DNA from: Bacteroidales bacterium
Lineage (GTDB): Bacteria > Bacteroidota > Bacteroidia > Bacteroidales > UBA12481
Length of the DNA: 35,227 nt
Direction: 5' to 3'
NCBI GenBank assembly: GCA_012523435.1
Contig: JAAYIP010000219.1
Coordinates: 1-35,227, forward strand
The first letter of the stretch is position 1. Each line of letters begins with the position of its first letter. This document shows, in pieces, positions 26,996 through 29,063 of the stretch. A model generated the notes under the pieces. That model searched no databases, was not told the origin of the DNA, and saw nothing but the letters and a program-made list of their open reading frames with translations. A program made the position numbers and the translations under genes.

Positions 26996-28546
26996 TTAGA
27001 GGATGATTTTCTCACCGTTATGGTCGAAAAACTCGTAATTGAGAATGCCGATATTACTATCGGACTTAATTTTTAGCCAGATTTTGGTTTTGAGGAACCA
27101 TTTAATGCGTATAGAAGGGCATCCGAACTGAAGGTAGGAAGCAAGGTAGGGGTGAGCTCGCAAAGTAAGGCTTTTCCCTTTTTCCTTGTCGATCAGATAC
27201 ATAAAGTGATTTTTAATTTGATCCACCAGGAGGATACTTGGAGTGATTTCACCGGTTCCGCTGCAGGTTGGGCAGGTTTCCATAATCTGCACATCCATTT
27301 CCGGTCTAACCCGTTGTCTGGTGATTTGAAGAAGGCCGAATTTACTCAGGGGTAAGATATGGTGTTTGGCCCGGTCGGTTTTCATGGCCTCCTTCATTTG
27401 CTCAAATAATTTCTGACGATTCTCGGCTTTGGTCATATCGATGAAATCGACGACGATAATGCCGCCCATATCTCGAAGCCTAAGTTGCCGGGCTATCTCC
27501 TCTGCAGCGGAGAGGTTAACCTCCAAGGCATTAGTCTCCTGGTCGCTGGCTGATTGTGAGCGGTTGCCGCTGTTTACATCGATGACATGCAGGGCTTCGG
27601 TGTGCTCAATGATCAGGTAGGCACCGCTTTTAAAGGAAACGGTTTTCCCGAATAGAGACTTGATTTGTTTGTCGATGCCAAAATGCTCGAAAATGGGTGT
27701 TTTCGAGGAGTAGTACTTGACAATTTTTTGTTTTTCCGGAGCGATGGTGGAGATGAAATCCCGGATCTCGCGATACAGCGATTGGTCGTTAACGATGATG
27801 TTATTGAAGCTGGAATTAAGGATATCCCGCAGGATTGCGGATGTGCGATTGAGCTCACCGAGTACCAGGCTAGGTGTTGCAGCAACCTTAATATCCTGAA
27901 AGATTGATTCCCAGCGTTCTACAAGAGATCGAAGTTCGGCATCGAGCAGGGCTACCTTTCTTTCCTTAGCAACAGTTCGGACGATGACGCCGTAGGTCTT
28001 TGGCTTAATACTTAGTATCAGCCTTTTGAGGCGATCCCGTTCTTCTTCAGACTTTATCTTAGTGGAAACGGATACTTTATCCGAGAAAGGAAGCAAAACC
28101 AGATTCCGTCCGGCAAGGGAAATTTCACTCGTTAAACGGGGACCTTTCGACGCAATTGGTTCTTTGGCAATTTGAACCAAGATGGTTTGTCCCGATTTCA
28201 TCAAGTTTGTGATCTTGCCGTGTTTATCGATATCCTGTTCAGTCTTGAACTTTTCGATTGGCATGATCTTCGTCTTCCTGGTCAAGGACAGGTTCAGGTA
28301 CTTGTTCAGCGACTGAAACTGTGGGCCTAGGTCGAGGTAGTGAAGAAAGGCGTCCTTTTCGTATCCAACATCAACAAAAGCAGCATTTAGACCGGGCATG
28401 ATCTTTTTGACCTTACCCAAGTAAACATCTCCTACTGCAAACTGAATATTGGATTTCTCCTTGTTGAGTTCGACCAGTCTCTTATCCTCAAGAAGAGCTA
28501 TAGCAATCTCGTTAGGACTGGCATTAATGATCAATTCAGTACTCAC
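26996..28546 (-). CDS. rng: Ribonuclease G/E family endoribonuclease
   Basis: 516 residues, the RNase G / short RNase E size with no long C-terminal scaffold. The S1 domain is near the N-terminus (AVGDVYLGKVKKIMPGLNAAF). The catalytic Mg-binding Asp residues fall in EALHVIDVNSGN and GGIIVVDFIDM, and the zinc-link Cys pair in ETCPTCSGTG. The family trims 5S/16S rRNA and starts mRNA decay. The gene is preceded by a 17-bp perfect inverted repeat at 28601-28638 that would lie in its leader. It follows the HU and small basic protein genes on the same strand. Confidence 0.95.
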   Translation of the reverse strand: MSTELIINASPNEIAIALLEDKRLVELNKEKSNIQFAVGDVYLGKVKKIMPGLNAAFVDVGYEKDAFLHYLDLGPQFQSLNKYLNLSLTRKTKIMPIEKFKTEQDIDKHGKITNLMKSGQTILVQIAKEPIASKGPRLTSEISLAGRNLVLLPFSDKVSVSTKIKSEEERDRLKRLILSIKPKTYGVIVRTVAKERKVALLDAELRSLVERWESIFQDIKVAATPSLVLGELNRTSAILRDILNSSFNNIIVNDQSLYREIRDFISTIAPEKQKIVKYYSSKTPIFEHFGIDKQIKSLFGKTVSFKSGAYLIIEHTEALHVIDVNSGNRSQSASDQETNALEVNLSAAEEIARQLRLRDMGGIIVVDFIDMTKAENRQKLFEQMKEAMKTDRAKHHILPLSKFGLLQITRQRVRPEMDVQIMETCPTCSGTGEITPSILLVDQIKNHFMYLIDKEKGKSLTLRAHPYLASYLQFGCPSIRIKWFLKTKIWLKIKSDSNIGILNYEFFDHNGEKIIL

Positions 28547-28600: not shown

Positions 28601-28638
28601 AGCATAAACCTAAAGAGCAGTCTCTTTAGGTTTATGCT
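28601..28638 (-). repeat. 17-bp perfect inverted repeat in the rng leader (terminator, attenuator or RNA processing site)
   Basis: The arms 28601-28617 (AGCATAAACCTAAAGAG) and 28622-28638 are exact inverse complements around a 4-nt loop. The repeat lies 20 nt after the stop of the small basic protein and 55 nt before the rng start. No long U-tract follows on the minus strand, so it is a poor classical terminator. It could attenuate transcription into rng or be cut by RNase G itself. Confidence 0.6.
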
Positions 28639-28657: not shown

Positions 28658-28750
28658 CTATTTCTTCTTCTTGTGACGATTTTTACGCAGGCGCTTCTTG
28701 CGCTTATGCGTCGCCATCTTATGTCTTTTGCGCTTTTTTCCGCTGGGCAT
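28658..28750 (-). CDS. 30-residue highly basic protein, probable ribosome-associated protein
   Basis: The reverse strand encodes a 30-residue protein MPSGKKRKRHKMATHKRK, continuing KRLRKNRHKKKK. Twelve Lys, six Arg and three His make 21 of 30 residues basic. The gene follows HU after 25 nt and has an in-frame TAG stop. I recall near-identical short ORFs next to HU and rng in other Bacteroidota. Its composition is that of ribosomal proteins that thread through rRNA. A small extra protein named bL38 was reported in the Flavobacterium ribosome, but I cannot tell from sequence alone whether this is it. Its small size means gene callers often miss it. Confidence 0.8.
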   Translation of the reverse strand: MPSGKKRKRHKMATHKRKKRLRKNRHKKKK

Positions 28751-28775: not shown

Positions 28776-29063
28776 CTACTTCTTAACTTGATCTTTAACT
28801 TTTGCAACGAAAGTTTTGGCAGGCTTAAAGGAGGGGATAAAATGCTGCGGAATGATGATGGTGGTGTTCTTGGAAATGTTCCGGGCTGTTTTCTCTGCTC
28901 TTTTCTTTACTATAAAACTTCCAAAGCCCCGGAGGTAAACGTTATTTCCATTTACTAATGAGGTCTTTACGGTGCTCATGAAAGCTTCAACCGTCTTTTG
29001 TACAGCAACTTTCTCAATTCCAGTGTTCTTGCTGATTTCGTTTACAATGTCTGCTTTAGTCAT
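28776..29063 (-). CDS. HU-family DNA-binding protein
   Basis: 95 residues, normal for HU/IHF. It starts MTKADIVNEISKNTG and has the dimerisation helices, then VYLRGFGSFIVKKRAEKTARN (the GFGSF turn and start of the beta-arm) and IIIPQHFIPSFKPAKTF. The open frame extends upstream to 29267, but that part is A/T-rich and unlike HU, and contains the promoter. The protein bends DNA and compacts the nucleoid. It is the first gene of a probable HU - small basic protein - rng - dsbD unit. Confidence 0.95.
   Translation of the reverse strand: MTKADIVNEISKNTGIEKVAVQKTVEAFMSTVKTSLVNGNNVYLRGFGSFIVKKRAEKTARNISKNTTIIIPQHFIPSFKPAKTFVAKVKDQVKK

Follow-up and report, generated by a model that had tools for sequence, protein, structure and literature searches.

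A 30-residue basic reading frame between HU and rng in a Bacteroidales bacterium almost certainly encodes ribosomal protein bS22, a protein undetectable in much of two lineages of Bacteroidota

Introduction

The question raised by this locus is whether a very short and strongly basic reading frame, located between genes for an HU-family protein and a ribonuclease G/E family protein, is a real gene and, if so, which protein it encodes. The window, i.e. the whole stretch of DNA that was analysed, comprises 35,227 nucleotides from a Bacteroidales bacterium (assembly GCA_012523435.1, contig JAAYIP010000219.1). An earlier note on this DNA had drawn attention to the frame; its claims are taken up below with the results that bear on them.

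The reading frame and its surroundings

The following features were located, all on the minus strand.

28658..28750, minus strand: gene assigned, almost certainly, to the 30S ribosomal protein bS22; 30 residues, ATG to TAG
28776..29063, minus strand: HU-family DNA-binding protein of 95 residues, conserved upstream neighbour (name recognised from the sequence)
26996..28546, minus strand: rng, ribonuclease G/E family protein of 516 residues with a GTG start, downstream neighbour conserved in many loci (name recognised from the sequence)
28601..28638, minus strand: terminator-like hairpin between bS22 and rng; 17 pairs and a loop of 4, then ATTTATTGGT

Translation of positions 28750 to 28658 on the minus strand yielded MPSGKKRKRHKMATHKRKKRLRKNRHKKKK, followed by a stop codon. 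Twenty-one of the 30 residues were lysine, arginine or histidine, corresponding to a basic fraction of 0.70. The translation confirmed the 30-residue minus-strand frame with 21 such residues, an ATG start and a TAG stop that the earlier note had described. The runner-up among the ATG-initiated reading frames of at least 25 residues in the window had a basic fraction of 0.40. When 200 windows of matched length were simulated with an order-3 Markov model, the highest basic fraction was 0.52 and none of the windows reached 0.70. A chance reading frame was ruled out by this simulation together with the conservation described below. Elsewhere in the window, a reading frame of 38 residues presumably resembles ribosomal protein bL36.

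The stop codon of HU and the start codon of the frame were separated by 25 nt, and the stop codon of the frame and the start codon of rng by 111 nt, in agreement with the position between HU and rng given earlier. The hairpin at 28601-28638 had a fold z-score of -5.2 and a modest T run, and could terminate minus-strand transcripts. As it stands between bS22 and rng, rng may be attenuated or belong to a unit of its own, whereas HU and bS22 appear to share a transcript. The operon position that had been claimed was thus retained for HU and bS22, and perhaps not for rng. In 91 of 104 bS22 loci, HU preceded the gene on the same strand at a distance of up to 1.5 kb (up to 200 nt in 62); distant neighbours are missing from this count, as most loci ended 1.5 kb on each side. 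Downstream, rng was found within 700 nt in 61 of the 104 loci, all of which had HU as well; 14 of the 104 loci were retrieved via rng itself, so these neighbour counts are partly biased to synteny and are not phylum frequencies.

Identity of the encoded protein

When the PDB sequences were searched with phmmer, three chains matched at E ≤ 10, all over the full length or nearly so. These were 9i5v_10, named AURKAIP1/COX24 domain-containing protein (E 1.2e-10), 7jil_5, with the pooled names 30S ribosomal protein S22 and 50S ribosomal protein L38 (E 3.8e-10), and 8fmw_V, 30S ribosomal protein bS22 (E 1.1e-5). The profile of 27 family sequences matched only the same three chains, each at about 1e-12 or better.

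The organism of 7JIL is one which we take to be Flavobacterium johnsoniae, whose structure is also cited in the papers. Its chain 5 likewise has 30 residues, of which 27 were identical over the full length; the F. johnsoniae chain differs by M12V, L21A and K23A. The same chain sequence is encoded letter for letter by a genome of the phylum sample (G025, locus L096), where HU lies 48 nt before the gene and rng 275 nt after it. Chain 10 of PDB entries 9I5V and 9I5X was identical at 28 of 30 positions and differed by S3N and R22K; a literature search found no paper on entry 9I5V. The bS22 of Borrelia burgdorferi (8FMW chain V) matched over the full length and had the HKRKK and NRHKK core in common, but its chain comprises 28 residues and was only 71 percent identical. 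Its start codon is given as GUG in excerpts of the Borrelia ribosome paper (PMC10618245).

The frame at 28750-28658 is a real gene, and, judged from these sequence matches, its product is almost certainly the small-subunit protein bS22 of this Bacteroidota bacterium. The full-length matches to solved bS22 chains bear out the suggestion that the product is a ribosomal protein. It is not a novel protein, as bS22 is already present in deposited ribosome structures and discussed in papers. The name needs some care, since the unrelated SRA protein (rpsV) of E. coli is also called S22.

Conservation and selection

At a match threshold of E ≤ 0.01, and with the own genome counted in both samples, 376 of the 395 phylum genomes sampled had the frame, as did 56 of 60 relatives. 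The check in other Bacteroidota that had been proposed turned out in favour of the gene. Comparison of the window with 96 loci of distinct DNA, from which identical DNA and loci that were too short had been removed, revealed 1438 synonymous and 144 non-synonymous codon differences. By codon position, 361, 85 and 1517 differences were counted, each of 2784. The gene is under strong purifying selection. In all 11 near-relative comparisons listed, the protein was unchanged despite differences in the DNA, and 13 columns were invariant in the alignment of 27 sequences. The start codon was ATG in 102 of 103 loci and GTG in one, the 103 being no random sample, as they include the locus of the window, five pairs that are apparently the same genome twice (e.g. 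L052 and L061) and 30 genomes picked mostly for divergence.

According to the profile search, bS22 is present as a single copy in its own genome; a candidate second copy at G000:C222:3595-3672 (E 0.718) did not recur with the profile and was rejected. No match to bS22 was obtained among phages. The plasmid record NZ_OY725812.1 contained, at 75215-75259, where no gene is listed, a match to residues 1-15 only (93 percent, E 0.2).

Alternative assignments

The second name pooled under the 7jil_5 sequence would make the protein bL38 of the 50S subunit, the very protein with which a comparison had been recommended. The L38 label is borne by at least one of the five PDB entries that share the sequence of the F. 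johnsoniae chain. However, excerpts of PMC10618245 describe bL38 as a separate, beta-stranded protein of the 50S subunit near H95 of the 23S rRNA, which is similarly located in F. johnsoniae; the bS22 of F. johnsoniae is described there as a helix in a pocket of the 16S rRNA. The recommended comparator is, as far as these excerpts go, a different protein. The Borrelia chain that matched over the full length is moreover labelled bS22. We regard an identity with bL38 as very unlikely, and one of the two names on the sequence of 7JIL chain 5 is likely wrong.

Even less credible is a main selected role outside the ribosome, as a small free peptide that binds DNA or resembles antimicrobial peptides. 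Such a role might be suspected from the adjoining HU gene and from parts of the Cutibacterium study (PMC10085706), in which the bS22 peptide inhibited bacterial growth in disk assays as well as cell-free translation. The same parts present bS22 as a ribosomal protein first, however, and the nearly invariant sequence across the phylum fits an rRNA site.

Family models and distant homologues

NCBIfam contained no family for the 30-residue protein. The Pfam model COX24_C (PF08213) scored 12.1 bits (E 0.19), far below its gathering cut-off of 23 bits. With the 27 aligned family sequences, 11 matched this model at E ≤ 10, the best at E 0.018. A search of the own genome with the same model gave nothing at E ≤ 10, and among 14 control genomes it produced matches in three and exceeded the cut-off in one. 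Annotation by family models can thus miss bS22 of this type, although not always, as the name AURKAIP1/COX24 of the deposited chain 9i5v_10 demonstrates. To this extent the statement that standard annotation misses the protein was justified: without an NCBIfam family, and with COX24_C below its cut-off, it is easily missed.

The bS22 proteins of mycobacteria and Cutibacterium and the mitochondrial mS38 (AURKAIP1, Cox24; PF08213) are similar in their basic composition and occupy, according to excerpts of the papers, the same 30S site as a bent helix. Their sequence matches to the protein of the window were nevertheless without significance. BLASTP against mycobacterial bS22 gave no match, hhalign aligned residues 5-22 in register with residues 5-22 at E 0.0036 and a probability of 9 percent, and the profile search of the PDB did not reach actinobacterial bS22 or mitochondrial mS38. 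Because the sequence tests were not significant, it is the published structural overlay that supports homology to the members from actinobacteria and mitochondria.

Proposed role in the ribosome

Excerpts of the Borrelia ribosome paper (PMC10618245) place the helical bS22 in a pocket formed by h2, h27, h44 and h45 of the 16S rRNA, with contacts to H68 of the 23S rRNA, and state that bS22 has been seen in Bacteroidetes ribosomes. For Cutibacterium, the same 16S site and a contact with H67 of the 23S rRNA are reported in the parts of PMC10085706 already cited, where the F. johnsoniae protein is given as 37 percent identical to that of Cutibacterium. Mycobacterial bS22 is placed near the decoding centre in a background sentence of PMC7470450. 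A term search of the F. johnsoniae bS21 paper (PMC9976891) found no mention of either bS22 or bL38.

By analogy with these relatives, the highly basic 30-residue protein would form a helix seated in the 30S pocket of the 16S rRNA, presumably at the same site in this organism. It would also touch the 23S rRNA and add a subunit bridge, and may brace the region near the decoding centre. The rRNA-binding product predicted by the earlier note would then be bS22, whose binding site is described for relatives in the excerpts.

Lineages without bS22

The 19 genomes of the 395-genome sample in which no frame was found were unevenly distributed. Seven were all the members of the GC-rich family f37 that had been sampled, and four (4 of 8) belonged to genus g88 of family f25. 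The other eight were fragmented genomes; G291 had 230 contigs and the rest between 290 and 520. A profile search of the 23 genomes lacking a match in the phylum sample and among the relatives detected nothing convincing except a partial copy, residues 1-14, in G386.

The wider profile survey was limited to genomes that were at least 90 percent complete. In the family of G227, bS22 was found in 60 of 67 genomes, and all seven misses were g88; it was undetectable in 7 of 12 g88 species and present in 55 of 55 from other genera of the family. In the order of G147, it was found in 65 of 78 genomes, and all 13 misses were f37. Within f37, bS22 was undetectable in 13 of 14 genomes (G147, G195, G199, G309, G328, G344, G388 and G496-G501), and only G502 keeps it. 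Incomplete assembly is a likely cause of the scattered misses in fragmented genomes. For the 13 f37 and seven g88 misses it is a poor one, as several of these genomes reach 97-99 percent completeness and are assembled in 2 to 20 contigs.

The locus was compared between four of the seven g88 genomes without bS22 (G227, G274, G286 and G348; HU loci L128, L126, L127 and L129) and four g88 genomes with it (L103, L104, L105 and L111). In the former, HU and the flanking genes were present in the order of the relatives, and the gap between HU and its neighbour measured 104, 124, 180 and 83 nt, respectively, with no basic frame left in it. In the latter, the gap measured 296, 302, 394 and 290 nt. In the four genomes read, the gene block is intact apart from the missing bS22. 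For f37, HU served to locate five loci, and in none of them did the 400 nt after HU contain a bS22-like frame. The rng loci of f37 (7 loci) had a GC content of 60-67 percent. Acid and base content in f37 was compared for the longest open frame per locus only, and this frame is probably not Rng in L081 and L082. From its genome size and GC content, we suspect that f37 is Salinibacter-like, which would tie the loss to a high-salt cytosol. A literature search on bS22 loss and Salinibacter returned no paper, and the loss may still be published.

Significance

The small reading frame, missed by family models, thus encodes, with the confidence stated above, a ribosomal protein that almost all of the phylum possesses, which settles the annotation for the window. 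Near-universal and nearly invariant in Bacteroidota, bS22 has yet probably undergone two or more losses, one affecting most of f37 and another 7 of 12 species of g88, a genus elsewhere in the phylum. These lineages would be natural knock-outs showing that bS22 is dispensable and which changes of rRNA or protein compensate for it. The lineage-specific absences are possibly less known than bS22 itself and merit a brief look by ribosome specialists, as they offer a ready comparison for the role of bS22 at the decoding side of the 30S subunit.
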